DNA of 64,000 nucleotides, from positions 2,356,001 to 2,420,000 of the forward strand of contig NZ_CP018082.1 in the NCBI RefSeq assembly GCF_001886715.1. The letters run 5' to 3'. Origin of the DNA: Nocardia mangyaensis. Lineage in GTDB: Bacteria > Actinomycetota > Actinomycetes > Mycobacteriales > Mycobacteriaceae. Shown here one piece after another: positions 4,153 through 54,174 of the stretch. Position numbers and translations under genes: made by a program. The notes beneath the pieces were generated by a model. The model saw only the letters and a list, made by a program, of their open reading frames with translations, was not told where the DNA came from and ran no database searches. How positions within the stretch are numbered: position 1 is the stretch's first letter; every line of letters starts with the position of its first letter.

Positions 4153-4172
4153 GACTGTGAATGCACACAGTC
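4153..4172. promoter_or_regulatory. Inverted-repeat operator upstream of desA1
   Basis: A perfect 7-base inverted repeat, GACTGTG / CACAGTC, with a six-base spacer ends about 50 bases before the desA1 start. The core also resembles a CRP half-site (TGTGA). Mycobacterial desaturase genes are controlled by the TetR-family repressor MadR, so a MadR-like protein is the first candidate. The binder is inferred. Confidence 0.55.
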
Positions 4173-4220
4173 TTGCGCGCGACGGCGGCGGCCACGCTCG
4201 CGAGGGCCGAGGGTGGAACG

Positions 4221-5162
4221 ATGAAACACCTTTCCGACCGTGACATCCTGACCGAACTCGCGCCGGTCGCCGAAGCCAATCTCAACGACCACCTCGCCAA
4301 GGCCAAAGCGTGGAATCCGCACGACTACGTGCCGTGGGACGAGGGCCGCAATTTCGCGGCGATGGGCGGCATCGATTGGGAGCCCGAGCAGTCACGACTG
4401 AGCGAGGTCGCTAAGGCGGCGATGATCACCAATCTGCTCACCGAGGACAATCTGCCCTCCTATCACCGTGAGCTCGCCGACACCTTCGGTCTCGACGACG
4501 CCTGGGGCACCTGGGTGGGCCGCTGGACCGCCGAGGAGAACCGCCACGGAATCGTGCTGCGCGACTACCTCGTGGTGACCCGCGCGGTCGATCCGGTCGC
4601 GCTGGAGCAGGCGCGGATGACCCACATGACCGCCGGAATAGCGAAACCGGAAAAGGGCTCGCAATTCCTGCGCTCGGTCGCCTATGTCACCTTCCAGGAA
4701 TTGGCCACCCGAATCAGTCATCGCAATACCGGCGCGCTGTGCGCGGAACCGGTCGCCGAGCGCATGCTGGGGCGCATCGCCGCCGACGAGAACCTGCACA
4801 TGATCTTCTACCGCAAACTCTGCGCCGCCACCCTCGACCTGACCCCCGACGAGAGCATCCGCGCGATCGCCGATGTCGTCCTGCGATTCCAGATGCCCGG
4901 TCTCAACCAGCCGAACTTCCGGCGTAATGCGGTGCTGCTGGCCAAGCACGGCGTCTACGATCTGCGCCAGCATCTCGACGTCGTCCTGAAGCCGGTCCTG
5001 CGGACGTGGAACGTCTTCGAGCGCAATGATTTCACCGCACCGGGCGAGCAAGCGCGCGAGGAATTGCATCAGTACCTCGTCGATCTCGAGACCAAGGCCG
5101 CCCGCTTCGAGGAACAGCGCGAACGGGCGCTCGCGCGCGAACTCGCCCGCGCCGCGAGCTGA
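4221..5162 (+). CDS. desA1: Acyl-ACP desaturase, DesA1-like
   Basis: A 313-residue soluble diiron desaturase thought to insert a double bond into long acyl-ACP chains destined for mycolic acids. Both carboxylate/His metal motifs are intact: EENRHG near residue 107 and DENLHM near 191. Segments such as TEDNLPSYHRE, RDYLVVTR and FQELATRISHRNTG agree with mycobacterial DesA1 as I remember it and not with DesA2, which has a different second motif region. The ATG at 4221 is preceded by a GAGGG stretch; an in-frame ATG at 4161 adds an Ala/Arg-rich leader with no family match. It is monocistronic. A perfect inverted repeat lies in the promoter region. Confidence 0.88.
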   Translation: MKHLSDRDILTELAPVAEANLNDHLAKAKAWNPHDYVPWDEGRNFAAMGGIDWEPEQSRLSEVAKAAMITNLLTEDNLPSYHRELADTFGLDDAWGTWVGRWTAEENRHGIVLRDYLVVTRAVDPVALEQARMTHMTAGIAKPEKGSQFLRSVAYVTFQELATRISHRNTGALCAEPVAERMLGRIAADENLHMIFYRKLCAATLDLTPDESIRAIADVVLRFQMPGLNQPNFRRNAVLLAKHGVYDLRQHLDVVLKPVLRTWNVFERNDFTAPGEQAREELHQYLVDLETKAARFEEQRERALARELARAAS

Positions 5163-36024: not shown

Positions 36025-36477
36025 CTAGGCGTTGACCAAGGAGTCGATCGGCAGGCGGGTGGCCCACTCGGCGGCCATGTCCTTGGCCTTGATCTCGGTG
36101 GAGGCGTCGTGGCGGGCGTGTTCGCCGACCTGGACGGCGCCGCGGGCGGCGAGTTTCTCGGCCGCGATCTCGCCGCCGCGGTTGAAAGTGTCGCCGTAGA
36201 CGCTGTCGCCGAGGCCGAAGACGGCGAAGCGCAGGCCGGTCAGGTCGGGGCGGGTGGCGTCGAGTTGCTCGAAGAAGGGTTCGGCGCCGGTGGGGAGGTC
36301 GCCGTCACCGTAGGTGGAGCAGACGATGATGTGGAAGTCGCCCAGCTCGAGGTCGCCCGGATCGAAGTCCATCATGTCGTACACCGATACGTCATGAGCG
36401 CGGAGTTCGTCGGCGAGATGGTCCGCGACCGCCTCGCCCGTGCCGATCTCGGATCCGAACAAGATGATGACGCGCAC
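36025..36477 (-). CDS. Iron-regulated flavodoxin
   Basis: A 150-residue flavodoxin-domain protein (MioC-like). The FMN phosphate loop reads G-S-E-I-G-T-G-E (residues 8-15), with C-S-T-Y-G-D-G-D near 53 and F-G-L-G-D-S-V-Y near 88 for the isoalloxazine loops. Flavodoxins replace ferredoxin when iron is scarce, and an IdeR-type box 21 bases upstream fits that. Confidence 0.88.
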   Translation of the reverse strand: MRVIILFGSEIGTGEAVADHLADELRAHDVSVYDMMDFDPGDLELGDFHIIVCSTYGDGDLPTGAEPFFEQLDATRPDLTGLRFAVFGLGDSVYGDTFNRGGEIAAEKLAARGAVQVGEHARHDASTEIKAKDMAAEWATRLPIDSLVNA

Positions 36478-41298: not shown

Positions 41299-42651
41299 TC
41301 AGACAGACTCGGCGGGCGCGGTCGATGAGCCCGTCGTGGTGAGGACGCCGCGCGCGGCGCAGGCGTGCAGGATCTGCTCGACCTCGTTCAGGAAGGGCAG
41401 GACAACGGCGCGCGCCCTCGCTGTGGCCGGATAGCGGACGCGCAGCGCCAGCCCGTCCGCGCTCCGCGAGAACCAGACCTGCACGTCGTCGGCCGTGCTG
41501 GTGTTGGAGACGTGGGTCGCGTTGCGCGCGCGGGCGCCGGGCAGGCGTCGGTAGTCGATATAGGACACCATGAAGATGTCACTTCGCTGTAGGTTCAGCC
41601 CACCCAGCGCGTGCAGCGTATCCGCGAGCGGGACCGCGCCGATCTCGATCGCGGTGCGCACGGCGAACTGGGTGCGGCGCACGGAATCTGTGATCGTGCC
41701 GGACGCGTCGACGGCGACCGGGGCATTGGTGGTGAACCAGCCGATCGCCGTGTCCCACCGTGGTTCGTTCCGCGTGTGCATCGGGAACAGCAGTCGGGTC
41801 CGGTCCCCGCCGCCCGCCGTGCGCACGCCGTGGGCCAGCGCTGTCAACAGACCGGCGAAAAGCCCCGAATCGTTGGTGCGGCACCAGCTTTCGAAGTCCG
41901 CTGTTTCCCCGGCCGAGAGCATCCGGCGCAACTCCACGGCCTGGGGCGCGGACTGTCCCCGCGCGAGGCCCAGATCGAGCGGGAACGACGGCGGGACAAC
42001 TCCCTGGTCGCCGAAGAACTCCCGCCATCCGTCCACACGTGGATCGTCGTCGCGGAACTCGACCGGCTGGGCGCAATAGTCGACGAAATCGCCGACCGGA
42101 GGCAAGGTTTCGGGTTCGGCGCCGTGATAGAGCAGCCGCAGATCCTCGATGACGACGGCGATCGAGTACGCGTCGACGTGCGCGTGATCGAAGGCGCACA
42201 CGATGGTGGCGGTGTCCGGCCGGTCGATCGCGGCGAGGAGATACGCCCGCTCGGCGAACGGCGCGCACCGATCGTTGCAGTGTCGCCAGAGTGTTTCGCG
42301 CAGTGCGGCACCGGAGCGGTGCGCGGTGCCGGGCTGTTCCTCGAGCCGGACCGATGCCGGACGCAGCACTCGGCGCGGACCCGTCGAGGTGGGGACGAAG
42401 GAACTGCGCAGCGTGCCGTGGCGGGCGATCAGCGCCCGGTAGGCGTCGGCCAATGCCGCCCGATCCAGCGGCCCATCGACATCGAATGCCGCTGCCAGCC
42501 AAGTGTTTCCGCTCTCGGCGCCGACCAGATGGACGAGCTGGTTGAACGACGGCGGTACCGGCGACTCGATCGAGGTGCCGTCGTCCCGCACAGTCCAGTG
42601 CACGAAAGTGCCAGGCTCGGGTGCGTAGCGATCAACCGTGGTGACGCGCAA
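41299..42651 (-). CDS. PapA-like acyltransferase 3 (condensation-domain fold)
   Basis: A 450-residue acyltransferase with the catalytic H156-A-H-V-D160 of the HxxxD superfamily. It should transfer an acyl group to a sugar or lipid hydroxyl. The start TTG 42651 is chosen because GGGAGG lies six bases upstream and because the two sister proteins begin with the same pattern (T-x-x-x-x-Y/W-x-x-x-x-G-T/A-x-x-x-W); the ATG at 42708 is a shadow start. The start lies 20 bases inside the upstream acyltransferase gene. Third of three tandem paralogues. Confidence 0.82.
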   Translation of the reverse strand: MRVTTVDRYAPEPGTFVHWTVRDDGTSIESPVPPSFNQLVHLVGAESGNTWLAAAFDVDGPLDRAALADAYRALIARHGTLRSSFVPTSTGPRRVLRPASVRLEEQPGTAHRSGAALRETLWRHCNDRCAPFAERAYLLAAIDRPDTATIVCAFDHAHVDAYSIAVVIEDLRLLYHGAEPETLPPVGDFVDYCAQPVEFRDDDPRVDGWREFFGDQGVVPPSFPLDLGLARGQSAPQAVELRRMLSAGETADFESWCRTNDSGLFAGLLTALAHGVRTAGGGDRTRLLFPMHTRNEPRWDTAIGWFTTNAPVAVDASGTITDSVRRTQFAVRTAIEIGAVPLADTLHALGGLNLQRSDIFMVSYIDYRRLPGARARNATHVSNTSTADDVQVWFSRSADGLALRVRYPATARARAVVLPFLNEVEQILHACAARGVLTTTGSSTAPAESV

Positions 42652-44089
42652 CCGCCACCTCCCGATCGCCGGTCCCGATGAGGTAGTCGCCGTCGGCGGC
42701 AACGGCATCGAACACCCCGCGCAGGTGTGCGTGATAGCGCGCGAGTTGCTGCTGGGCGAACGGTGTCCCCGGACTCTGGCAGCCGAGATAGAGATGCTCG
42801 GCGTCGCGGTTGAACCACATCGACGCGTTCGCCGTCTCGCCTTCCCCGGTGAACAGCATGCCCCGTTCGTACGGCGTGGTCCCGGCGCCGGGGAAGCGAC
42901 GGAAATCCATGTAGGACAGCATGTTCGGGCTCGCTGTCACGGCAGCCGGGTCGGCGCCGGAGGCGAGTAGCGCGCCCAGCACCGCCTGCAAGGGAACCTC
43001 GGACAGCGCGATCGCGCGATCGTAGGCTTCGTTGGCACGGGTGACCAGCTCGGTGAACGAGGTCGCGCCGCGCACGGTGAAGGCCACCGGCGCGAAGTTG
43101 CACAGCCAACCCTGCGCCAGCAGGTACTCACCGGATCCCCTGGTGCTCAGCACCGTCATGCCGTAGTACTCGTCGCGTCCGGCGAGCTCGCGATCGGTGA
43201 TGGCGACCGCGGCGAGCACCCCGGCCACATACCGTCCGCCCGCGGCACGGCAGGCCTCGGCGAACGCCGCGGAACCGGTCCGGTCGAGCACATCGAATTC
43301 GATGCCGTGCATCGGCACGGTGGTCCCGGGTTCGAGACCCAGATCGAGGGGGAAGCGGGGCATCACATGGCCGTGGTGGCGGAAGATGTCGACCCATTCG
43401 GCGATCTCGGGACTCGACGGGGAGAACTGTTGGGCCCGTGCGTGTTCGGTGCGGGCGTAGTCGGGGAATCCGCCGGTCGGCGCGGCGGTGTAGGGACTCA
43501 GCGCGTGCCCGGACTTCTCGTTGTCGTAGAAGTCGAGAATCTCGGTGAGGACAAGCGCCTGGGAAGCGCCGTCGCTCAGCGCATGATCGGTGGCGTAGTA
43601 GAGGGTGAACGAATTCGTGCGGGTGACCGCGCCGAGGAGGAAACCGGGCCAGCTCGTCGCCACGGCCTCCCGGGCGATCCGCGCGAGCGCGTAGTCGCGG
43701 AACTCGTTGTCGCCCAGGGTGTGACCGGTCGTGTGGGCCTCGAACGCGATTCGATCGGCATCGACGCCGTGCCTGGTCACCGTGGCACCGTCGGTGGCGA
43801 ACCAGGTCAGCAGCCCGCTGTGGCGGACGACGAACCGGCGCAGCGCCCGACTCATCGCCTCGGCGTCGAGCGCGCCGTCGACCTCGGTCGTCACCGCGAG
43901 ATACGCGGTGTGCGGTCTCCCGGTCTGGGCGCGGGCATGCACGCCGCGAAGGTGATTGTCCTGCAGGAACGTTCCCGGATCGGGATCAGCGGCAGCCGTG
44001 GAGGCGGCCCGGCGGGCCGCCTCGGTCGGCTGCCATTCCACCAGGGCACCCGCCGCGGGGCGCCAATTGCGCAGTGCGGTGATGATCAT
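42632..44089 (-). CDS. PapA-like acyltransferase 2
   Basis: A 485-residue protein close in layout to mycobacterial PapA1/PapA2: N-W-R-P-A-A-G-A-L-V-E-W at the start, catalytic H169-A-L-S-D173-G, and a C-terminal half with G-M-T-V-L-S-T-R and Q-G-W-L-C-N-F-A-P-V segments like the PapA tunnel region. PapA enzymes acylate trehalose or glycolipid cores in the cytoplasm before export. Six bases separate it from acyltransferase 1. Confidence 0.86.
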   Translation of the reverse strand: MIITALRNWRPAAGALVEWQPTEAARRAASTAAADPDPGTFLQDNHLRGVHARAQTGRPHTAYLAVTTEVDGALDAEAMSRALRRFVVRHSGLLTWFATDGATVTRHGVDADRIAFEAHTTGHTLGDNEFRDYALARIAREAVATSWPGFLLGAVTRTNSFTLYYATDHALSDGASQALVLTEILDFYDNEKSGHALSPYTAAPTGGFPDYARTEHARAQQFSPSSPEIAEWVDIFRHHGHVMPRFPLDLGLEPGTTVPMHGIEFDVLDRTGSAAFAEACRAAGGRYVAGVLAAVAITDRELAGRDEYYGMTVLSTRGSGEYLLAQGWLCNFAPVAFTVRGATSFTELVTRANEAYDRAIALSEVPLQAVLGALLASGADPAAVTASPNMLSYMDFRRFPGAGTTPYERGMLFTGEGETANASMWFNRDAEHLYLGCQSPGTPFAQQQLARYHAHLRGVFDAVAADGDYLIGTGDREVAVARHHG

Positions 44090-44095
44090 CGGCCC

Positions 44096-45529
44096 TCAGC
44101 TCACTCCGGCGGCCGGCGTGACAGCGGTGCGACGGTCGACCAGTTCGCCCACGGCGGTCACCGTCGACAGCATCGCGGTGAAGGTGTTGATGAACCGGTG
44201 CACATTCGCGGCCGCGACCTCATTGCTCGGGAACCGCGCCGAGACCGCCAGTCCACCGGGTGAGCGGGCGATCCAGAAGTACACCTCGTCATCGGACTCT
44301 TCGCCGCTGCGCAGCGGGCGCACGTTCCACTGCTGCCACTGCGCGGCATCGGGGACATGGCGGACATCCACATACGACACGACGAACCGCGGCACCTGGT
44401 CGCAGCCGAGTAGGGCGGCGATGCGCGGAAACGGATGGTGTGCCAGCGGTTTCGCGGTATCGATGGCCGTCGAGGTGCGGGCGAGCAGTTCCTCGAGCGT
44501 GTCGGCGCCCGCGTGGTCGATCTCGAGGGGGAGCAGTCCCACGTACCAGCCCATGGCGTGCACGTGCGCGGCGGTCTGCCTGGTGTGCACCGGCATCGCG
44601 CAGCGCAGCGGTTCCGAGCCGACCAGGATGCGGTGGGTCGCGGCGAGTGCGGCGAACACCGCGGTCTGGACAGAATGCCCGGCCCGGCGGCTGCGAGCCT
44701 GGAGCTGCTCGGCCTGCTCCGCGGTCAGCACCCAGGACGAGAGCCCGCTCTGATGCAACCGGGGCGACGCTTTGGCGCGCGGCGCGATCGGTAGCGGGAA
44801 CGCCGGGAACTGGCCGTCGCGCAGATAGCGTCGCCAGACCGTGACCGCTGGATCGGTCTCGGTCAGTGCCGCGCCGACGGCGCGATCGTGCGCGCCGAAA
44901 TCGATGTAGCTGCCGACCTCGGGGAGTTCGGCGGGCGTCGCGGTGACGACCGAGCGGTAGATGCGCTGGATCTCGCTGATGGCCAACATCATCGAGTAGG
45001 CGTCCATCACGGAGTGGTCGGCGCCGAAGACCAGCAGAAAGCCCGTGCGGTCGCCGGTCAGCTCGGTGTCGCTGACGGTGGCGAGCAGGCAGTGCGGCCA
45101 CTCGGTGGGCGAGAGCCGGGAGCCGAAGAAGTCGGTGAGGTGCTGATACACCCGGGTCCCGGTGCGCAGGTGCCCGACGCGCCGGGCCGCGACGCGGAGG
45201 TCCTCGGCGGGGCAGGTGTAGCGCACGAACCGGTCGGGTGCGGCCGCGTCGGCGGCGGCCGTGGTGCGGAAGGCGTCGTGGCGGGTCATCCACCGCCGCA
45301 ACGTGGTGCGGACCGCGGCCTCGTCGAATGGCAGCGGGATCTCGAAGATCGTGCCGAGCCAGGAGCTTTCGCCACCGGATGATCCGCCCGACCGGACGCA
45401 ATGTTCTTCGTGCAGGTGGCTCAGCGGGCGATCGTCTCGCCGCCACGCACTCGACCGTCCGGTGACCGGCACCCATTCGATGAGTGTCCCCGCCCGAAGC
45501 GGATAGTCGGCTAGCTCTGTGAATTCCAT
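44096..45529 (-). CDS. PapA-like acyltransferase 1
   Basis: A 477-residue HxxxD acyltransferase, first gene of the minus-strand trio. It begins M-E-F-T-E-L-A-D-Y with G-T-L-I-E-W near 14-19, and the catalytic residues are H172-S-V-M-D176. A segment M-P-V-H-T-R-Q and G-W-Y-V-G-L-L-P-L near 330 matches the other two. ATG 45529 is used; the in-frame extension upstream to 45736 has no family match. It is divergent from the ABC exporter genes across 454 bases. Confidence 0.86.
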   Translation of the reverse strand: MEFTELADYPLRAGTLIEWVPVTGRSSAWRRDDRPLSHLHEEHCVRSGGSSGGESSWLGTIFEIPLPFDEAAVRTTLRRWMTRHDAFRTTAAADAAAPDRFVRYTCPAEDLRVAARRVGHLRTGTRVYQHLTDFFGSRLSPTEWPHCLLATVSDTELTGDRTGFLLVFGADHSVMDAYSMMLAISEIQRIYRSVVTATPAELPEVGSYIDFGAHDRAVGAALTETDPAVTVWRRYLRDGQFPAFPLPIAPRAKASPRLHQSGLSSWVLTAEQAEQLQARSRRAGHSVQTAVFAALAATHRILVGSEPLRCAMPVHTRQTAAHVHAMGWYVGLLPLEIDHAGADTLEELLARTSTAIDTAKPLAHHPFPRIAALLGCDQVPRFVVSYVDVRHVPDAAQWQQWNVRPLRSGEESDDEVYFWIARSPGGLAVSARFPSNEVAAANVHRFINTFTAMLSTVTAVGELVDRRTAVTPAAGVS

Positions 45530-45983
45530 ACGAATGCGCCCCAACCATGTTGCTGACCGAAAGCTGAAAACACTGTGAATCCCCATGCTCGCCCGGCGGT
45601 GCCACAACGTCGACGTTGTCTGGACCGATGGCGTCTGCCCGGTGACGGGCATGAAACGAGCGTAGGGGTAACCGGAAGATAGTTCCTGCCGGACGACGGT
45701 GGCCTTCGTCACGATGTTTCCGATTGGATATATCACCTGGCTATGGCGATATTTGAGGTGTGGCAGCCTATTTCGACGTTTCGGTCGGATCAGCGACGGA
45801 TGAACAACACGTTTCCCGGCGATATCTCATCAACAATGTGGCGATCGATACGCGGCCGGCCAACGATGTGGGGTTGCCGCCGTCTTCGCGCAGAACATAA
45901 GCTGCCAGAAGTTCGCAGTGGTGCGACCGCACTCCCGTACGGAATTCGTCGACTATTCGGCGCCGACCGATGAGGAGGTGACG
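45530..45983. other. 454-base divergent intergenic region, A+T-richer, with a 16-base palindrome
   Basis: I see no gene here; the short frames have no ribosome sites. The stretch around 45715-45840 is visibly richer in A+T than its surroundings, with several GATATxT repeats, as in a promoter or recently acquired DNA. It holds the perfect palindrome at 45604-45619. It must contain promoters for the acyltransferase trio and for the exporter. Confidence 0.55.
45604..45619. promoter_or_regulatory. Perfect 16-base palindrome, operator candidate
   Basis: ACAACGTCGACGTTGT is self-complementary over all 16 bases, 75 bases before the first acyltransferase start. Such a site suits a TetR- or LuxR-type dimer. 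No regulator gene is adjacent. Confidence 0.55.
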
Positions 45984-46949
45984 ATGGTCGAATTCGAATC
46001 GGCGATCGAAACCAGGGGATTGACCAAGTCTTTCGGCGCGTTCCGCGCGGTCGACGGCATCGACCTGACCGTGCCCATGGGCACTGTCTGCGCCGTGCTC
46101 GGCCCCAACGGGGCGGGCAAGACGACGACGGTCCGGATGATCGCGACCCTGCTGCGTCCCGACGCGGGCACCGCGCGGGTGTTCGGGTACGACGTGGTGC
46201 GTGACGCCACGGCGGTGCGCTCGCTGATCGGGCTCACCGGCCAGTACGCCTCGGTCGACGAAGATCTCACCGCCACCGAGAACCTGACCATCTTCGCCCG
46301 ATTGCTCGGCTCCTCCGGTGCCCGCGCCGCCCGGCGCGCGGACGAGCTGCTCGAGGAGTTCGGCTTGCAGTCCGCCGCGAGCAGGCCGCTCAAACACTTC
46401 TCCGGCGGTATGCGCCGCCGGCTCGACCTGGCCGCCAGCCTGATCGGACGGCCACCGCTGCTGTTCCTCGACGAACCGACGACCGGCCTCGATCCGCGCA
46501 CGCGCGTGCAGATGTGGACGACGGTGCGCGAACTCGTGCGCACGGGCACCACCGTGCTGCTCACCACCCAATACCTCGACGAGGCCGACGAACTGGCCGA
46601 CCGGGTCGTGGTGATCGACCACGGCCGGGTCGTCGCCGACGGCACCGCCGACGAACTCAAGGCCACCGTCGGTGCCGCCGCGCTGACCCTGCGGGTGGCC
46701 CCGGCCGACCTGCCCACCGCCGCCACGCTCGTGCACCGATACACCGGCGCCGAGGCCGTCCTCACCACCGATGACGGGCACCTCACGGTCGCGGCCGCCG
46801 ACACCTCGGCCCTGCCCGAAATGCTGATCGCCCTGCGTGAGGCCGGGATCGAGGTGCGCGAACTCGGCCTCGCCCAACCCAGCCTGGACGAGGTGTTCTT
46901 CGCGATCACCGGACCAACCGACCCGCTGCGCGTCCCGGAGCCCGCGTGA
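45984..46949 (+). CDS. DrrA-like ABC exporter ATPase
   Basis: A 321-residue ATPase: Walker A GPNGAGKTTT, Q-loop G-L-T-G-Q-Y-A-S-V-D-E typical of DrrA/daunorubicin-type exporters, signature F-S-G-G-M-R-R-R-L-D-L, Walker B L-L-F-L-D-E-P-T-T-G-L-D-P, and a ~100-residue C-terminal domain. ATG 45984 follows TGAGGAGG. It overlaps the permease start. In mycobacteria DrrABC exports complex surface lipids; the neighbours suggest the same here. Confidence 0.88.
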   Translation: MVEFESAIETRGLTKSFGAFRAVDGIDLTVPMGTVCAVLGPNGAGKTTTVRMIATLLRPDAGTARVFGYDVVRDATAVRSLIGLTGQYASVDEDLTATENLTIFARLLGSSGARAARRADELLEEFGLQSAASRPLKHFSGGMRRRLDLAASLIGRPPLLFLDEPTTGLDPRTRVQMWTTVRELVRTGTTVLLTTQYLDEADELADRVVVIDHGRVVADGTADELKATVGAAALTLRVAPADLPTAATLVHRYTGAEAVLTTDDGHLTVAAADTSALPEMLIALREAGIEVRELGLAQPSLDEVFFAITGPTDPLRVPEPA

Positions 46950-47752
46950 GGACCGCAGCCGAGCGGATCGGCACCCCCGAGGCCGTTCGCCGGATCTCGG
47001 TGTCGCAGTCGGTGTATCACGCCTCGACGATGGCGCGGCGCGGCCTGCTCAAGATCAAGCACAATCCGCAGGAGCTGTTCGACGTCGTCGCGCTGCCGGT
47101 GGTGTTCACGGTGATGTTCTCCAGCATCTTCGGCGGCGCCATCGCGGGCACGGTCACCGGCTATTTACCCATCCTCATCCCCGGTGTGCTGGTACAGGTG
47201 GCGGTCGCGGCCTCGGTCAACACCGGGGTGAAGCTGCGTGAGGACATGAACAAGGGTGTGTTCGACCGTTTCCGCGCGCTGCCGATCGCGCGGATCGCGC
47301 CACTGGCCGGCTCGCTGCTGGCCGACATGGTGCGCTACGCCGTCGCCACGGTCATGACGGTGCTGGTCGGCCTGGCGATGGGCTACCGTCCCGCCAGTGC
47401 CCTCGGCCTGTTCATCGCCTGCCTGCTGGTCATGGTCGTGGCCTTCGCCCTGAGCTGGATCTTCGCGCTGATGGGCGTGCTGATGGACAAACCGTCCACC
47501 GTGCAAGGCGTCTCCATGCTGGTCCTGATGCCCCTCACCTTCGTCTCCAACGCCTTGGTGCCGGTCTCGACAATGCCCGGCTGGATGCAGGCCTTCGCCG
47601 AGGTCAATCCCGTGTCCCACCTGGTCACCGCCGTCCGTGAACTGGCCGACGGCCACTACGGCCCCGAAATCGGCATCTCCCTGCTCGGCGCCCTGGCGGT
47701 CATCACCGTCATGGCCCCGCTGACCGTCCGTGTCTACATGCGCCGCACCTGA
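46946..47752 (+). CDS. DrrB-like ABC-2 exporter permease
   Basis: A 268-residue membrane protein with six hydrophobic segments of the ABC-2 type and a D-M-N-K-G-V-F-D-R-F-R loop near residue 100 that is typical of DrrB. GTG start overlaps the ATPase stop (GTGA). No third DrrC-like gene follows, so it probably acts as a homodimer. Confidence 0.87.
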   Translation: MRTAAERIGTPEAVRRISVSQSVYHASTMARRGLLKIKHNPQELFDVVALPVVFTVMFSSIFGGAIAGTVTGYLPILIPGVLVQVAVAASVNTGVKLREDMNKGVFDRFRALPIARIAPLAGSLLADMVRYAVATVMTVLVGLAMGYRPASALGLFIACLLVMVVAFALSWIFALMGVLMDKPSTVQGVSMLVLMPLTFVSNALVPVSTMPGWMQAFAEVNPVSHLVTAVRELADGHYGPEIGISLLGALAVITVMAPLTVRVYMRRT

Positions 47753-47758
47753 ACCGCC

Positions 47759-48619
47759 CTACGGCGCAACGCGTTCGGGTGTCTTGCGGAACAACTCCGT
47801 GGGGGCGAAGCGGCCGGTGCGGGTGTCGTAGGTGCGCAGCAGGACCAGGCGGGCGGCGTGCAGGACGATGATCGGGGGGAGGTAGACGGTGGCGGCGCCG
47901 AGGGCCAGGCCGTAGCGCTTGTGCAGGAGCAGGGTGCGGGGCAGGCAGGACATGTAGCGGGTGAAGGAGACCATCCCGGTCGCCATGCGGCGGGGGGCGA
48001 CGCCGACGGTGATGGTGGGGAGAAAGGCGTTGCGGCCACCGACCTCGGTGACGCAGAGGCCGGTGTCGACGTCTTCGAAGACGTCGCGGCGCATGGCGAC
48101 CCGGTCACGGATCAGTGCCCAGGTGTGCTGTCGCAGGATCATGTTCGAGCCGTAGAGCACGGGAACCTGCTTGACCCGGTGCGCCTTTCGCTCGCGCCAC
48201 CGCTGGCGCAGGGTGCCGACGGTGTCGCCGTAGGGGAGGTCGTAGGCCTGGCCGCGACCGCACGCGGCGGCCCAGTGGCCCGATGTGTCCGCGGCGAAGA
48301 AGTCGACGATCTGGCGGGCCCAGTCCGGGGGGACGAGGGTGTCGGCGTCGATGCGGGCGATCAGATCGCCGACCGCGCTGTCGAGGCCGCGGTTGCGGGC
48401 GTGGACGAGTCCCTGTTCGGCTTCGCCGATCAACCGGATCGCGGGCCAGCGCGCGGCCTGCTCGGCCACGATCTCGGTCGTGCGGTCGGTGGAGTTGTTG
48501 TCCACCACGAGCACTTCGGCGATGTGCTCACGCTGCTCGGCCAGCCGGGTCAGACACTCGCCGATGATCTCCTCCTCGTTGTAGGCGGGGATCACCACGG
48601 ACAGCGAGGGCGGGTTCAT
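47759..48619 (-). CDS. Family 2 glycosyltransferase
   Basis: A 286-residue GT-A-fold transferase: S-V-V-I-P-A-Y-N-E-E-E start, V-V-D-N-N-S-T-D-R-T near 40, metal-binding D-A-D near 95, and an E-D-V-D-T-G-L acceptor-side motif near 195. Hydrophobic segments near the C-terminus suggest membrane association. The acceptor is probably lipid-linked. The ATG at 48619 overlaps the upstream UGT stop. Confidence 0.85.
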   Translation of the reverse strand: MNPPSLSVVIPAYNEEEIIGECLTRLAEQREHIAEVLVVDNNSTDRTTEIVAEQAARWPAIRLIGEAEQGLVHARNRGLDSAVGDLIARIDADTLVPPDWARQIVDFFAADTSGHWAAACGRGQAYDLPYGDTVGTLRQRWRERKAHRVKQVPVLYGSNMILRQHTWALIRDRVAMRRDVFEDVDTGLCVTEVGGRNAFLPTITVGVAPRRMATGMVSFTRYMSCLPRTLLLHKRYGLALGAATVYLPPIIVLHAARLVLLRTYDTRTGRFAPTELFRKTPERVAP

Positions 48620-49926
48620 CGGACTCCTCCACGGGACGGGCGGGACGGGCGGTACGGGCCTGCACCGACAGGCGTGCGGGCCGAGACTTCGACGAGCGCG
48701 GCTGCGGCGCGCACGGCCTCGTGCGGTGCCACCATCGCCGACGCCACGCGCCGCGCGGCGACGGCGCGTTCGGGGCGAAGCAGCTCGCGCACCGCGCGGG
48801 TGAGGGTGACGCGGTCGAGCCGTGTGACCGGGAGACCCACACCGATGCCGAGCGCGTCGAGCCTGCGCCCCCACATCGGCTGATCGGCCCCGATCCAGCA
48901 GACCAGCGCCGGGATTCCGGCGCGCAGTGCGGCGGCGGTCGAGCCCGCGCCACCGTGATGCACGGCCGCGACACAGCGCGGCAGCACCGTCGCGTGATCG
49001 ACGGCGCGCACCACGCGGACCCGGTCACTGGACTCACCCGCCATGAACTCACTCCAGCCCGCGGCGACCAGCAGACGCAGCCCGAGTGCATCGGCGACCT
49101 CGGTGAAGGTGCGGGCCAGCCGGTCCGGGTCGGCGATCGTCATGCTGCCGAAACCGACGTAGAGCGGCGGTGACCCCGCACCGAGCCAGTCATCGAGATC
49201 GGTGCTGTCCTCGCCGATCATGGCGCGGGTCTGCGGGGTGAGGTCCAGGAATCCGACCAGCGGCCGGTCGTGCCCCCACTCCTGCGCCAGCCCGGGGAAC
49301 AGCACGGGGTCGTAGGCCTGGATCTCGGGGACCCCGCGCTGGGCGATCCGCGTGGCGGGCGGGCTCGTCGGCGGTGGGAGCCCGAGGTCGGCGGCGAGTT
49401 CGCGTTCGGCCGAGCGGGTCGCGAGCCAGGTCAGCTGCTCGAGCGCGGTCCAGCTGAGATGGTGCGCGCGGCCCGGCGCCGCGCGCAGCGGCAGCAGCGA
49501 GGCGACGCTGTTGCGGCGCAACGGACAGTAGTGCAGGGGTACGTAGGGAATGCCACGCGCGTCGGCCACGTTCAGCAGTCGTTCCTGACCGACGCTGCCG
49601 CCGATCAGCGCGTCCGCGTGCGCTGTGAGTTCCAGGAGTTCGGTCTGGGTCCGGCGACCGTCGCGCACGGTCAGCCGGGCCAGTGCGCGCAGGCGGGTGA
49701 GCGGGTTGGCCGATTTCAGTTCACTCGACACCAGCGCGGAATCGAGTAATTCTTTCGTGTCGGCGCCGAATTCCCGGGTGGGAATTCCGGCACGTCGACA
49801 GAAATCGGCCAGATTCGGCGGAACGGCCATTGTCACGTCGTGGCCGAGCGCCCGCAATTGCACGCCGAGCGCCAAGCCGGGCTGCACGTCACCGCGGCTG
49901 CCGGTGAACGCGAGTACGAATTCCAT
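48616..49926 (-). CDS. UGT-type (GT1) glycosyltransferase, GPL-rhamnosyltransferase-like
   Basis: A 436-residue GT-B enzyme: L-A-F-T-G-S-R-G-D-V-Q-P at the start and the nucleotide-sugar motif V-H-H-G-G-A-G-S-T near 345. This wording recalls mycobacterial glycopeptidolipid rhamnosyltransferases and Rv1524/Rv1526c. It is transcribed with the GT2 gene and divergent from its paralogue at 50103. Confidence 0.86.
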   Translation of the reverse strand: MEFVLAFTGSRGDVQPGLALGVQLRALGHDVTMAVPPNLADFCRRAGIPTREFGADTKELLDSALVSSELKSANPLTRLRALARLTVRDGRRTQTELLELTAHADALIGGSVGQERLLNVADARGIPYVPLHYCPLRRNSVASLLPLRAAPGRAHHLSWTALEQLTWLATRSAERELAADLGLPPPTSPPATRIAQRGVPEIQAYDPVLFPGLAQEWGHDRPLVGFLDLTPQTRAMIGEDSTDLDDWLGAGSPPLYVGFGSMTIADPDRLARTFTEVADALGLRLLVAAGWSEFMAGESSDRVRVVRAVDHATVLPRCVAAVHHGGAGSTAAALRAGIPALVCWIGADQPMWGRRLDALGIGVGLPVTRLDRVTLTRAVRELLRPERAVAARRVASAMVAPHEAVRAAAALVEVSARTPVGAGPYRPSRPSRGGVR

Positions 49927-50020
49927 CGAGCTCCTCGCAGTACGGCTACCAGGGGGTCGAGAAAATCCACCGTAACCAGATCGGCGGGCAACGCGCGCGG
50001 TGAGCGCGGCGCCGGGTGCT

Positions 50021-50035
50021 CCATCTCACAGATGG
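50021..50035. promoter_or_regulatory. Small hairpin/operator between divergent glycosyltransferases
   Basis: CCATCT-CAC-AGATGG is a perfect 6+6 inverted repeat in the 176-base divergent gap. Function is unassigned. Confidence 0.35.
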
Positions 50036-50102
50036 CGGGGGGATGCTGGTCCATTGCTGCCTGTTTCGCCTACCGTGCTCGTATCTCGAGGCAGGGAGAT
50101 CG

Positions 50103-51380
50103 ATGAGGTTTCTACTCGCGTTCAACGGAACACGCGGAGATGTCCAGCCTGCTGTGGTCGTCGGTTCGGAACTGCAGCGTCGCGGCCACGATGTGCTCGT
50201 CGGGGCGCCGCCGAATCTGTGCGAGTTCGTCGCGTCGGCCGGACTGGCGACCGCGCCGTTCGGCTACGACACCCACGCGCACATGAACTCCGAGGTGGTG
50301 CGCACGAAGCTGCGCACCGGCGGACCGCGTCAGCGGTGGCAGGCCTTCACCGAGGTCCGTGATCTGGGGTGGTCGCAGGCGGTCGCGGACATGGCCGAAC
50401 TGCACACCGGTGCTCAGGCCATCGTCACCGGTTTCGTCACCGAGCAGATCGCGGCGCCCTTCGCCGAGGCCACCGGCGCGGCGTGTATCTCGTTGCACCA
50501 CGCGCCGATCCGGCCCAACGGCTCCGTCTCGCCGGTGCCCGCCGCGCTGTCGGGACTGCCGCCGGTGGCGAACCGTGCGAGCTGGTGGCTCACCGAGAGC
50601 GCGATGTGGCTGCTGACCAAGGACCGGCAGAACGCGCTGCGCCGCGAACTCGGCGTCGCCGGAACGGTGCCGCGTGCGCCGACCGACCGGCTCGAGATCC
50701 AGGCCTACGATCCGCGACTGTGTCCGGAACTGGTGGACGAGTGGTCCGACCTGCGACCCTTCGTGGGATTCCTCGGCCTGGCCGCCGAGCAGCGCGCCCG
50801 CATCGGCGCCGACACCGGCGACACCGACCTGCTGGAGTGGATCGCGGCGGGTACCCCGCCGGTCTACTTCGGATTCGGCAGCATGCCGGTGCCCGATCCG
50901 GCGGCGGTGGTGGACGCGATGGTGCGAGCCTGCGCGCGACTGGGCGTGCGCGCGCTGATCAGCAACGGTTGGGCCGGGCTCGAGGTGACCGAACGCGCCG
51001 ACGTGCGGGTCGTCGGCGCGCTCGATCACGAACGGATCCTGCCGCTGTGCCGGGCGGCGGTGCACCACGGCGGCGCCGGGACAACGGCGGCGGTGCTGCG
51101 CGCCGGGATTCCGAGCCTGGTGTGCTGGGTGGGCTCGGACCAGCCGTACTGGGGTGCCCAGTGCGCGCGCCACGGCATCGGCTCGGCCACCCGGTTGAAG
51201 GGCCTGACCGCCGACACCCTCGTCACCGAGATGACCGCCGTCCTCACCCCGGAACGGGCGCGGACCGCGCGCGAGCTGGCCGCCGAACTGATCACCCCCG
51301 AACAGGCGGTACGCCACTGCGCCGACCTGATCGAAGAACATGCCGAGGAAGGCGGCCCGGCCCGGCGAGGTGATCGCTGA
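50103..51380 (+). CDS. UGT-type (GT1) glycosyltransferase, second paralogue
   Basis: A 425-residue GT-B enzyme paralogous to the previous one: L-A-F-N-G-T-R-G-D-V-Q-P, V-Y-F-G-F-G-S-M-P, and V-H-H-G-G-A-G-T-T near 320. ATG 50103 is preceded by GGCAGGGAGA. Its stop overlaps the next ATG (TGATG), linking it to the two acyltransferases downstream. Confidence 0.87.
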   Translation: MRFLLAFNGTRGDVQPAVVVGSELQRRGHDVLVGAPPNLCEFVASAGLATAPFGYDTHAHMNSEVVRTKLRTGGPRQRWQAFTEVRDLGWSQAVADMAELHTGAQAIVTGFVTEQIAAPFAEATGAACISLHHAPIRPNGSVSPVPAALSGLPPVANRASWWLTESAMWLLTKDRQNALRRELGVAGTVPRAPTDRLEIQAYDPRLCPELVDEWSDLRPFVGFLGLAAEQRARIGADTGDTDLLEWIAAGTPPVYFGFGSMPVPDPAAVVDAMVRACARLGVRALISNGWAGLEVTERADVRVVGALDHERILPLCRAAVHHGGAGTTAAVLRAGIPSLVCWVGSDQPYWGAQCARHGIGSATRLKGLTADTLVTEMTAVLTPERARTARELAAELITPEQAVRHCADLIEEHAEEGGPARRGDR

Positions 51381-52789
51381 TGGCGGCTGTGGCGCGTATG
51401 CAGCCCGAGGACACCACCTATTGGCTGGTGCGCGAGGCCTTCGGCTGGTCGGTGGTCCTGCAGATCCTCTGGCGGTTCCCCGCGGTCCCGCCGCGTGCCG
51501 ACCTCGAGACCTTCGCTGAGCGACTGCGCCACAGCGTGCTCAACCGCCGGCTGATCCGGGCGCGGACACCCTTCGCGAGACACCGTTGGGTACACGCCGA
51601 CTTCGCACCCGAACTGCTCGTCGACCAGGGCGAGATCCTGGTCGATGAAGTCGAATCCTGGTCCGGCACAGAGCTGTACAGCTCGCCTCTCGACCCCGAA
51701 CGTGGGCCGGCGTGGCGCCTGCGCGGAACCCCGATCGCCGACGGTGGCTTCGTCCTGTCGCTGACCGCACTCCATCTGATCGCCGACGGCCGGACCATGG
51801 TCACCGCCGCGGCAGCGGCCCTCACCGGCACCCCCACCGACCCACTGGCCCACTCGCCTGTCGACAGCCCGCCACCCTCCGCCGCTGCGGAGGATGCGGG
51901 CTACCGCCGACCGGTCATCTCCTGGTCGGCCGATCGGCTTGTCGATGCCGTGCGCGACACCGCGTTGGACGCTGTGGACGGTGTCGGCCAGGTCGCCGCC
52001 GCAGGACTCGGAATCGGCCGGGCCGCGGTGGCATTCACACGCCATCGCGGTTCGGACGCTCCCGGCGACGAACGCCCCGCCACACCGCGGGCGCACGTGC
52101 GTTCCCCGCTGGCACGGAATTCCTGGGCCACGGTGAGCGTCGACGCGGCGCATTGGGAGTCGGTCGCGGGGCAGCACGGCGGAACGACCAACACGCTGTT
52201 CATCGCCATCCTGGCCGGTGCCCTGCGCGCCTCCGGGTACAGCACAGCGCTGAAAGTGGGTGTTCCGGTGAGCAGACGCGGCCAGGACGACGACGCCCGC
52301 GGCAACGCCACCGCGGGAGTTTCGGTGCTGCTCACCGAGGACCTGCCGCCCGGCGGTGACCTCGGCCCACTGCGTCGCCAGTGCAAGGAGGCCTTCACCC
52401 GGCTGTCGGCGGGGGAGCGCGCGCCGCATGTCCACCTGTTGCCGCTGGTGTCCCTGCTGCCGACCGGGCTGGTCGTGCGCGCGGCGACCGCGGGTTCGGG
52501 CATGCCCGATGTGGTGGCCTCCAACCTCGGCGACTTCGCCGACGAACTCCGGTGCCTCGGTGGCATTTCCGCGAGCGCGGTCGCCTTCCGCGGCATCGCG
52601 CAGGGCGTCGATCCGGCCGAGCCCTACCGTTTCGGCGACGGCGTGCAGTCCTGGGCGATGCGCACCGGTGACGTGTGGACCTTCTCCGTCGCCGCTTTCG
52701 ACGAGCAGCACTTCCCCCGCCCGGACGACCTGCGCGAACTGCTCGCCGCCGAGCTCGACGGCTGGGGTGTCGAGCACCGGATGTGGTGA
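51380..52789 (+). CDS. HxxxD acyltransferase 4 (condensation/WS-DGAT-like)
   Basis: A 469-residue soluble acyltransferase with catalytic H132-L-I-A-D136-G and, near the C-terminus, the V-V-A-S-N-L-G-D-F-A-D segment of the condensation/WS-DGAT superfamily. It starts with an E-D-T-T-Y-W-L-V-R-E-A-F-G-W pattern shared with acyltransferase 5. Little like the PapA trio outside the active site. Coupled to the upstream UGT, so it probably acylates the sugar that UGT adds. Confidence 0.82.
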   Translation: MAAVARMQPEDTTYWLVREAFGWSVVLQILWRFPAVPPRADLETFAERLRHSVLNRRLIRARTPFARHRWVHADFAPELLVDQGEILVDEVESWSGTELYSSPLDPERGPAWRLRGTPIADGGFVLSLTALHLIADGRTMVTAAAAALTGTPTDPLAHSPVDSPPPSAAAEDAGYRRPVISWSADRLVDAVRDTALDAVDGVGQVAAAGLGIGRAAVAFTRHRGSDAPGDERPATPRAHVRSPLARNSWATVSVDAAHWESVAGQHGGTTNTLFIAILAGALRASGYSTALKVGVPVSRRGQDDDARGNATAGVSVLLTEDLPPGGDLGPLRRQCKEAFTRLSAGERAPHVHLLPLVSLLPTGLVVRAATAGSGMPDVVASNLGDFADELRCLGGISASAVAFRGIAQGVDPAEPYRFGDGVQSWAMRTGDVWTFSVAAFDEQHFPRPDDLRELLAAELDGWGVEHRMW

Positions 52790-52848
52790 AGCTCGCTTTC
52801 GGGCTCCGCCGAGATGCGGGGGCACCCGAGCCTGGTTAGCCTTTCGAA

Positions 52849-54174
52849 ATGAACCGTGTTGCCGGGGCAGACGAGTCATATCTTCTCGCCGAACAGCTCT
52901 TCGGCTGGTCGGCGCCGATCCAGTACGCGTGGGTGTTCGGCACCGAACCCGACCCCACCGAGCTGGCGCGTTTCAGCGACCAGCTCGCCGCCGGATCGCT
53001 GAGCCGCAAGGTGGTGCGCGCGGTCGTGCCGTTCGCGCGCCACCGGTGGGTGCGCTCACCGCATCCGCCGGTGCTGCGGATCGACCCCGACCCGATCGCC
53101 GACGCCGAGATCGGTGCGTGGGCCGACCGCACCCTGCGCGCCGCCGACCTCGACCCCATCGGCGGTCGCGGCTGGCAACTGATCGGGGTGCGCACCACCT
53201 CGGGCAAATTCGCCCTGTCGCTGCTGATCTCACACATGGTCGCCGACGGCCACGGCCTCTACAACGCCCTCGCCGCCGCGAACGCGGGCAGCTCGGCCAG
53301 CATCCTGCCCACCGAAGCCGAGGTCCTGGCCCGCCCACGCTGGCGCGCGGACGCCAAGGACGCGCTCGCCCAGCTCGGCGCGGCGGCTTCGGCCGCCCGT
53401 GTGATCGCCACCGAACTCTGGCGCACCCGCGACAACCGGACTCCCGCCGCGGCCCGCCCGCCCCGCGTGCGCGACCTGGCCACCGACGGCCCGGACACCA
53501 CCCTCGCCATCGTCGACGTCGACCGGGCCCGCTGGACCGAACAGGCCCGCGCGTTCGACGGCACCGGCAACAGCCTGTTCACCGCTCTGCTCGGCGGCAT
53601 CGTGCAGCGATCCGGCGCACCGGTCGGGCCCGAAGGGCTGCGTGTCTGCATCGCGGTGAGCAAACGCGAAGCCGGTGACGAGCGCGCCAATGCCTCCGGT
53701 GGCGTCTGGATCCGGGTGCTGGACCCCATCGCCCCCGACGCGGGCCTCCAGCAGATCAGAACGCTGAGCAAAGAGGCGTTCACTCGCTACGCCGCCGCCG
53801 GACAGGACAAACTCACCGACAACCTGCAACCGCTCGTCCGCCTGCTGCCCGACCGCGTGATCGCCACGATGATGCGTGCGATCGCGGGCCCCGACACCAC
53901 CGTCTCCAATCTGGGCGCCGCTCCCGACAGCGTCATCGAGATCGCCGGTCGACGTGCCGAATCCTTCGCCATCCGCGCCATCATGCAGGGTCGCAGCGCC
54001 GCCGAACGCCGTCGTCAGGGCCCCGCGGTCGCCGCCTGGGCGGTCGAGTACGACGACAAGCTCACCATCACCTTCTTCGGCATCCACCCCGACCACTTCG
54101 GCGACGAGGACAAACTCCGCGCCCACATCGCCGCCGAACTCGAGGCCTGGGGCCTCGGCGGCACCAGCTGGTAG
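52849..54174 (+). CDS. HxxxD acyltransferase 5 (paralogue of acyltransferase 4)
   Basis: A 441-residue paralogue: D-E-S-Y-L-L-A-E-Q-L-F-G-W start, H129-M-V-A-D133-G active site, S-N-L-G-A-A-P-D-S strand near 350. Fifty-nine bases after acyltransferase 4. Acyl donor and acceptor unknown. Confidence 0.82.
   Translation: MNRVAGADESYLLAEQLFGWSAPIQYAWVFGTEPDPTELARFSDQLAAGSLSRKVVRAVVPFARHRWVRSPHPPVLRIDPDPIADAEIGAWADRTLRAADLDPIGGRGWQLIGVRTTSGKFALSLLISHMVADGHGLYNALAAANAGSSASILPTEAEVLARPRWRADAKDALAQLGAAASAARVIATELWRTRDNRTPAAARPPRVRDLATDGPDTTLAIVDVDRARWTEQARAFDGTGNSLFTALLGGIVQRSGAPVGPEGLRVCIAVSKREAGDERANASGGVWIRVLDPIAPDAGLQQIRTLSKEAFTRYAAAGQDKLTDNLQPLVRLLPDRVIATMMRAIAGPDTTVSNLGAAPDSVIEIAGRRAESFAIRAIMQGRSAAERRRQGPAVAAWAVEYDDKLTITFFGIHPDHFGDEDKLRAHIAAELEAWGLGGTSW

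Follow-up and report, generated by a model that had tools for sequence, protein, structure and literature searches.

What product should be expected of a locus that combines five HxxxD-type acyltransferases, three glycosyltransferases (GTs) and an exporter with no polyketide synthase (PKS) or nonribosomal peptide synthetase (NRPS)? This question is posed by a block of ten intact genes at positions 41299-54174 of the window, our term for the whole 64,000-nucleotide stretch analyzed here (Nocardia mangyaensis contig NZ_CP018082.1, positions 2,356,001 to 2,420,000), which lies in a closed 7.31 Mb chromosome. Our reading of the sequence, to which we give a probability of roughly 0.6, is that the block assembles, without a PKS, an acylated trehalose-oligosaccharide lipid of the biosurfactant type, likely to be exported. 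From three GTs, three PapA-like acyltransferases, two wax ester synthase/diacylglycerol acyltransferase (WS/DGAT)-like enzymes and a DrrAB-type exporter we predict a trehalose-based pentasaccharide carrying three primary and two secondary acyl chains. The gene counts parallel published structures in three lineages, and Rhodococcus, with no GT beside PapA, provides a negative comparison.

Trehalose-based oligosaccharide biosurfactants were reported between 1989 and 2021, and we found no gene cluster assigned to them in the literature searched; in 2021 the genetic basis of such glycolipids was called still poorly understood (PMC8396431). Nor did we find a gene cluster of this kind described in the open-licence literature (most subscription papers lay outside the search) or, for Nocardia, a report of the predicted surface glycolipid in the literature searched. 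A conserved block whose counts parallel known structures makes the question of the biosurfactant genes testable. If the reading is correct, sugar and acyl number would become predictable from genomes, and the PapA, WS/DGAT-like and GT enzymes would constitute a set for making surfactants.

Gene content of the block

The ten genes are listed below; the cut-off for PF00668 (Condensation) is 30.6 bits.

41299..42708, minus strand: PapA_a, PapA-like HxxxD acyltransferase, 469 amino acids by the longest ATG open reading frame (ORF); PF00668, 51.7 bits
42632..44089, minus strand: PapA_b, PapA-like HxxxD acyltransferase, 485 amino acids; PF00668, 53.6 bits
44096..45526, minus strand: PapA_c, PapA-like HxxxD acyltransferase, 476 amino acids; PF00668, 69.3 bits
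45918..46949, plus strand: DrrA-type ABC exporter ATPase; ABC_tran and DrrA1-3_C, TIGR01188 drrA
46946..47752, plus strand: DrrB-type ABC-2 permease with several strongly hydrophobic stretches; ABC2_membrane PF01061, 97.2 bits
47759..48622, minus strand: GT2 glycosyltransferase with one C-terminal hydrophobic stretch; Glycos_transf_2 PF00535, 103 bits
48616..49926, minus strand: UGT1, GT1/GT28-type glycosyltransferase; PF06722 (EryCIII-like_C) and PF03033 (Glyco_transf_28)
50106..51380, plus strand: UGT2, paralogous GT1/GT28-type glycosyltransferase; PF06722 and PF03033
51380..52789, plus strand: WSD1, WS/DGAT-like HxxxD acyltransferase; weak TIGR02946 match
52849..54174, plus strand: WSD2, paralogous WS/DGAT-like HxxxD acyltransferase; HMVADG motif, no Pfam match

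None of the ten ORFs contains an internal stop, and they form four groups: PapA_c-PapA_b-PapA_a (minus), DrrA-DrrB (plus), UGT1-GT2 (minus) and UGT2-WSD1-WSD2 (plus). DrrA and DrrB overlap by 4 nucleotides (nt; GTGA), UGT1 and GT2 by 7 nt, and the WSD1 start overlaps the UGT2 stop (TGATG). Taken as its longest ATG ORF, PapA_a shares 77 nt with PapA_b. Fifteen of the 21 relatives with the gene start to show homology only 13-19 residues later, and the true start is probably some 40-57 nt further in.

A first-pass annotation made from the letters of the window had described these ten genes with their active sites intact, and Pfam, the stop-free ORFs and the conservation of HxxxD in all five acyltransferase groups bear this out. 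Its statement that the locus holds no PKS or NRPS also stands: there is no PF00109 match (E<=0.001) within the window, the nearest ketoacyl synthase beginning 22.4 kb past WSD2, and within the window PF00668 matches nothing but the three PapA genes. Since PKS and NRPS are lacking, no lipid or peptide aglycone is encoded in the block, and since there is no PKS the acyl chains would come from fatty-acid synthesis or beta-oxidation. Pfam searches of all ten genes identify DrrA/DrrB as the only transporter, with no MmpL; DrrA exceeds the TIGR01188 drrA cut-off (356.7 against 312.45 bits), and the TIGR00025 and TIGR01247 matches of DrrB fall below theirs.

Enzyme families and the case for a trehalose core

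All three PapA proteins have PapA2 (PDB 6aef) as their best PDB relative, at 63.5 (PapA_a), 128.4 (PapA_b) and 80.7 (PapA_c) bits. PapA2 is a trehalose-2-sulfate acyltransferase. As the closest solved structure to all three, it favors a trehalose core over a glycopeptidolipid-like aglycone bearing rhamnose. In alignments that include the window, the H and D of HxxxD are kept in 48/48 sequences for PapA_a (HAHVDA), 50/50 for PapA_b (HALSDG) and 73/73 for PapA_c (HSVMDA), the last set also including relatives of a fourth PapA described below. PapA a, b and c form separate tree clades of 48, 49 and 69 sequences; the labels were assigned by best match, which makes this test partly circular, but the clades nonetheless agree with gene position.

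The WSD proteins are more distant from their named family. Neither has a Pfam match at E<=0.001, and against the WS/DGAT model TIGR02946 (cut-off 309.95 bits) WSD1 scores only 44.6 bits and WSD2 does not match at all. Both carry the HxxxDG active-site motif, with HxxxD kept in 44 of 45 WSD1 sequences (one gap) and the H and D of HMVADG in 49/49 WSD2 sequences, window included. The predicted fold of WSD1, the only one of the two to be modeled, resembles the HxxxD acyltransferase fold of WS/DGAT; WSD1 has no PDB sequence match at E<=1, and PHROGs gave no useful match for either protein. Orthologues of WSD2 with at least 49% identity occur in Nocardia, Rhodococcoides, Williamsia, Gordonia, Millisia and Antrihabitans.

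Among the GTs, D92/D94 and E183/D184 of GT2 are near-invariant in 36 aligned sequences, as is D13 in the UGT1 alignment. The best PDB relatives of UGT1, the only UGT compared with PDB, are GtfA/GtfB-type and sterol glucosyltransferases, so that the initial assignment of the UGTs to a rhamnosyltransferase kind is not established. UGT2 sits in a tree clade apart from UGT1. In three Nocardia loci UGT1 and GT2 share one stop-free frame (L039 10001-12145, L042 10001-12163, L066 10293-12449), likely encoding a bifunctional two-step glycosyltransferase, and these frames support sequential action of the two enzymes.

Conservation across genera

A UGT1 scan returned 25 named loci, 20 of which hold the block in the same order, in six genera; with three Nocardia stretches chosen for their matches, these make up a set of 23 block loci. 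Two of the named carriers are N. takedensis NBRC 100417 and N. harenae NBRC 108248. PapA_b, PapA_c, DrrA, DrrB, UGT1, GT2, WSD1 and WSD2 keep a constant order in 23/23, with L064 ending inside PapA_b. UGT2 is in place in 17/23 and missing from its place in L046, L048-L051 and L054; PapA_a is found in 21/23, being absent in L045 and beyond the stretch end in L064. GT2 is the only gene to switch strand, sharing that of UGT1 in 9/23. The five remaining loci of the scan, all from Gordonia (L058-L062), contain three PapA, a WSD and a UGT (four loci) or a UGT with DrrA-like neighbors (one).

The same linkage is seen across 401 genomes of the family. WSD2 (E<=1e-120) is found in 37 genomes and GT2 (E<=1e-99) in these and nine others, 46 in all; in every one of the 37 the two genes are on the same contig 3.7-5.9 kb apart; the best WSD2-like match in the nine GT2-only genomes is 38-45% identical. 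For the set of 46 defined by GT2 at E<=1e-99 the co-occurrence has a hypergeometric value of 4e-44, which ignores relatedness. Conserved linkage and order rule out chance gene neighbors. Co-conservation of the acyltransferases with the GTs, on which the first-pass annotation had staked its proposal, is thus found as strong linkage and order across genera, and this supports the idea of an exported acylated glycolipid made by one block. The "three sugars" of that proposal fare less well, as the closeness of all three PapA to PapA2 makes three sugars beyond trehalose the more likely count.

All seven Williamsia loci have a fourth PapA beyond PapA_a. In some, a second PapA triplet also lies directly beside the block (L041 1.6-5.9 kb, L048 2.9-7.2 kb, L051 2.9-7.2 kb).

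Gene counts and published lipids

PapA_b is matched at E<=1e-80 in 32 of 37 Rhodococcoides genomes, and 17 loci, chosen by their matches, were examined. What they share with the window is a tandem PapA c-b-a array beside WS/DGAT-like and UGT1-clade genes; the window block has no fourth PapA (c') beside sseA. Eleven of the 17 are of the fascians type, a label of this analysis, with two WSD, one UGT, PapA c-b-a and, after a gap, the fourth PapA. They thus differ from the window block in having one UGT, which falls in the UGT1 clade, and four PapA, and in lacking DrrAB and GT2 within the stretch. In L106, L113 and L115 the fourth PapA reaches or crosses the stretch end; the genome scan lists it for G403, G430 and G393. 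The other six loci are of a three-GT type, reading WSD2, WSD1, UGT2, UGT1, GT2, PapA c-b-a and fourth PapA.

The fascians type can be set beside Rhodococcus sp. I2R, whose nearest species by 16S are R. yunnanensis, R. cerastii, R. fascians and R. cercidiphylli (PMC8396431). This strain secretes succinoyl di- and trisaccharide esters in which 3-hydroxyacyl chains bear secondary hexanoate or phenylacetate, and four papA positions have been published, with a papA array on contig 9 (PMC8396431 Table 5). Three tandem PapA and a fourth are arranged near the fascians-type spacing; the fascians-type loci also hold WSD, UGT and WSD, whereas the accessible part of the paper names papA genes and no UGT or WSD neighbors (PMC8396431). 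Summed over the three papA stop spacings, the error against I2R is 20 nt for L110, 38 for L111, 42 for L107 and 49 for L116, followed by 63 (L109), 82 (L114), 123 (L108) and 309 nt (L112) in further fascians-type loci; in L106, L113 and L115 only three genes can be compared, with errors up to 56 nt. Three-GT-type loci are at least 391 nt off on the PapA strand, and chance frames on the other strand come within 179 nt. In the fullest lipid of the R. fascians group, trehalose is extended by one glucose and bears four primary esters, of which two have secondary chains attached (PMC4365757 section 8; PMC8396431 Figure 9). One UGT, four PapA and two WSD in the fascians type thus stand against one extra sugar, four primary and two secondary esters.

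The three-GT type has its own chemical counterpart. The forward porA primer published for R. corynebacterioides DSM 20151 (PMC9233653) matches perfectly in one of the 37 genomes, G152, where part of the reverse primer also matches, together with the published 540-bp product and Edman N-terminus (PMC9233653). The G152 block is of the three-GT type (UGT1, UGT2, GT2), and a pentasaccharide octaester is the product known from "Nocardia corynebacteroides" SM1 (PMC4365757 Table 3).

A third lineage is Tsukamurella, recognized as genus g30 because the second contig of G198 and plasmid NC_014159 are identical over the 8 kb compared. The eight genomes listed each have both a PapA and a relative of GT2 (44-47%). 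Where the flanks are complete, in the two stretches L155 and L157, PapA is accompanied by a UGT and by a weakly matching WSD-like gene. Two GTs (UGT and GT2) here stand against the tri- and tetrasaccharide lipids known from this genus (PMC4365757). Rhodococcus sensu stricto, identified as genus g27 by two G302 contigs identical over 6 kb to R. rhodochrous plasmids, supplies the negative comparison: the PapA_b query finds one match (E<=1e-20) in 7/10 genomes and none in three, and no GT or WSD relative lies within the 20 kb stretch around PapA in the four loci examined of these seven. WSD2-like genes are present elsewhere in g27 genomes. Trehalose esters are reported for Rhodococcus at the level of the genus (PMC4365757 Table 2). 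We set aside the identification of the Rhodococcus PapA as TlsA, for which about 30% (PMC8396431) falls below the 47-50% between the Rhodococcus PapA and the Rhodococcoides fourth PapA.

A shared chromosomal site connects these genera. Four Rhodococcus (L167-L170), four Rhodococcoides, two Williamsia and two Tsukamurella loci were compared, with gene names by reading of sequence, and the lone or fourth PapA adjoins sseA in the loci compared, among them L108, L117, L120, L040, L047, L167-L170 and L155. Relatives of accD and maf are also found there in Rhodococcus, Rhodococcoides and one Williamsia. In Rhodococcoides and Williamsia L047 the block sits between accD or maf and sseA or maf, and in Tsukamurella L155 the interval from maf to sseA holds the WSD-like and UGT genes. 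The pattern is consistent with growth of a trehalose acyltransferase locus by cassette addition. In the window genome, where the block has three PapA, the best sseA match is at 1.08 Mb, 1.3 Mb from the block, with no PF00668 match near.

A proposed pathway and the evidence against it

In the model we propose, UGT1 would attach a first beta-linked hexose to trehalose, and GT2 and UGT2 would add the second and third to give up to a pentasaccharide. The three PapA would then place primary acyl chains onto the sugars from ready-made acyl-CoAs, WSD1 and WSD2 would most plausibly acylate the hydroxyls of 3-hydroxyacyl chains to form acyloxyacyl esters, and DrrAB would export the finished glycolipid. 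The first-pass annotation had drawn the acyl chains from primary or mycolic metabolism; judging from published chemistry, medium-chain and 3-hydroxy acyl-CoAs are the more likely donors and mycolates less so. It had also found no match to a characterized pathway, which holds for characterized genes, but the block does match a known chemistry that lacks assigned genes (PMC4365757, PMC8396431).

The assignment of the WSD enzymes is the weakest step of this model, for two reasons that count against it. No acyloxyacyl groups are reported for Tsukamurella lipids in the text consulted, despite the weak WSD-like match beside PapA. In the tree, both fascians-type WSDs lie on the side of WSD1, and so do not correspond one to one, as orthologues, to WSD1 and WSD2.

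Several further observations weigh against the model as a whole. The match of counts is post hoc and covers three chemically characterized lineages plus Rhodococcus; the pairing is at the level of genus or species and never of strain (strain SM1 of N. corynebacteroides differs from DSM 20151); its GT counts cover the block and not GTs elsewhere in the genomes; and no known product comes from any genome shown to hold the ten-gene form. The octaester of SM1 is not in one-to-one agreement with the six acyltransferases of G152. For I2R, the comparison was made from published coordinates and no locus matches the papA lengths exactly; most of its compounds carry fewer acyls and disaccharides occur (PMC8396431 Table 3), and the trehalose lipid reported from R. 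fascians BD8 has just one acyl chain (PMC6198247). In Tsukamurella GT2 is unlinked to PapA in three of four stretches and 3 kb from it in L156. DrrAB is absent from all 17 Rhodococcoides stretches, though present in R. trifolii (L040), meaning that export differs there or that DrrAB is non-essential. All eight Gordonia block loci (L045, L046, L049, L050, L052-L055) have an extra UGT past WSD2, 36-40% identical to the block UGTs, which leaves the predicted sugar number there unclear and blurs the count. Finally, close WSD1 relatives (E<=1.4e-95) occur in only 6 of 148 Nocardia genomes, the next match being at 3.7e-46, so the block is rare in the genus.

A stricter version of the model, which we regard as speculative and about half as probable as the model itself, would treat such loci as the genes sought for the actinobacterial oligosaccharide biosurfactants, working as a counting kit with one sugar per GT, one primary ester per PapA and one secondary (acyloxyacyl) ester per WSD. 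Across genera, gain and loss of cassettes would convert a trehalose ester to a tri-, tetra- or pentasaccharide lipid, and the Nocardia version would be a transplanted, exporter-equipped form whose pentasaccharide, hitherto undescribed, would bear three primary acyl chains and two secondary ones.

Comparison with known systems and competing explanations

Acyltrehalose loci of Mycobacterium tuberculosis use PKS, FadD and MmpL. The likeness of the sulfolipid (SL-1) and di-/polyacyltrehalose (DAT/PAT) loci to the window block lies in PapA-family acyltransferases on a trehalose core, predicted here; the block has no PKS, FadD or MmpL and instead holds WS/DGAT-like enzymes, three GTs and DrrAB. Between them, the phthiocerol dimycocerosate/phenolic glycolipid (PDIM/PGL) and glycopeptidolipid loci of mycobacteria contain DrrAB-type exporters, PapA-type enzymes and UGT-type GTs. 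The block shares the DrrA/DrrB-type exporter of the PDIM/PGL locus but not its phthiocerol PKS genes, and the NRPS of the glycopeptidolipid locus is absent from the window; a glycopeptidolipid or phenolic glycolipid pathway was therefore set aside. With TlsA of Rhodococcus sp. SD-74 and its succinoyl trehalose lipid the block shares trehalose acylation by a putative acyl-CoA transferase; this system was compared by description only, and no GT or WSD is mentioned in the available text (PMC8396431).

The competing explanation that survives best, although we consider it unlikely, is that the block decorates another aglycone, whether polyol, diol or a lipid whose synthesis is encoded elsewhere in the genome (the PKS 22 kb away, for example, might supply it), in the manner of phenolic glycolipids and glycopeptidolipids, with DrrAB as exporter. 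DrrA/DrrB-type exporters do serve phthiocerol lipids, a ketoacyl synthase does lie at the distance past WSD2 given above, and one of three further PapA-UGT-DrrA-DrrB-WSD modules in this genome is flanked by ketoacyl synthases at 27 and 35 kb. Against this, the block itself has neither PKS nor NRPS, all its PapA are nearest to a trehalose acyltransferase, the Rhodococcoides sister block matches a trehalose product, and the tested flanking genes are not found beside the block in 40 related loci, save a flavodoxin in 11.

Somewhat less probable again is that WSD1 and WSD2 are storage-lipid (wax or triacylglycerol) enzymes present by chance, leaving a lipid with only three acyl groups. The two proteins share the HxxxDG motif, and WSD1 a predicted fold, with bacterial wax ester synthase/DGAT, but their scores lie far below the family cut-off (nothing for WSD2), they are linked to glycolipid genes, and both are present in 23/23 block loci. 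The weakest contender, a plain acyl-trehalose disaccharide ester with UGT and GT2 acting on an unrelated target (self-protection or drug inactivation), is improbable: the UGTs have the rifamycin glycosyltransferase Rgt (NF000354) as best NCBIfam match, and disaccharide esters do accompany trisaccharides in I2R (PMC8396431), yet the Rgt scores of 107-112 bits are far below the cut-off of 800, GT2 and UGT1 accompany the acyltransferases in 23/23 block loci, in some as one frame, and none of the four Rhodococcus PapA loci examined has a neighboring GT.

Surroundings of the block and related modules

On one side the block adjoins genes resembling DinB and glyoxalase, and on the other a ligase of GCS2 type. 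We did not count as a member the FadD-like AMP-binding protein at ~59-60.5 kb, which lies beside FAD-dependent enzymes. When eleven flanking proteins were compared with the 40 related loci, the flavodoxin alone had a relative there, and the GCS2 flank had no match in the 40. Because the flanking genes, save this one, lack relatives in these loci, the block appears as a transplantable unit here.

The flavodoxin (36025-36477, minus strand, 5 kb from the block) shares 60-63% identity with a flavodoxin immediately adjacent to the fascians-type block in 11 loci. It was set aside as a block member, because in the remaining 29 of 40 loci no homologue adjoins the block; its nearness is possibly due to chance, or possibly reflects an electron donor for a hydroxylation step.

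An Rfam search of the window gave one match only, ASdes (84.9 bits, 4536-4603, minus strand), which is unrelated to the block. It lies antisense inside an ORF at 4161-5162 (plus strand) that reads like an acyl desaturase, and may only reflect conserved coding sequence.

The three further five-gene PapA-UGT-DrrA-DrrB-WSD modules of this genome (L068 at 3.78 Mb, L069 at 3.80 Mb and L071 at 1.335 Mb) have genes 31-60% identical to those of the block, and two of the modules are ~17 kb apart. They appear to be a smaller, recurring form of the block. In another genus of the family, L138 (G275:C74:68001-88000) holds five tandem WSD-like genes after one PapA_b-like gene.

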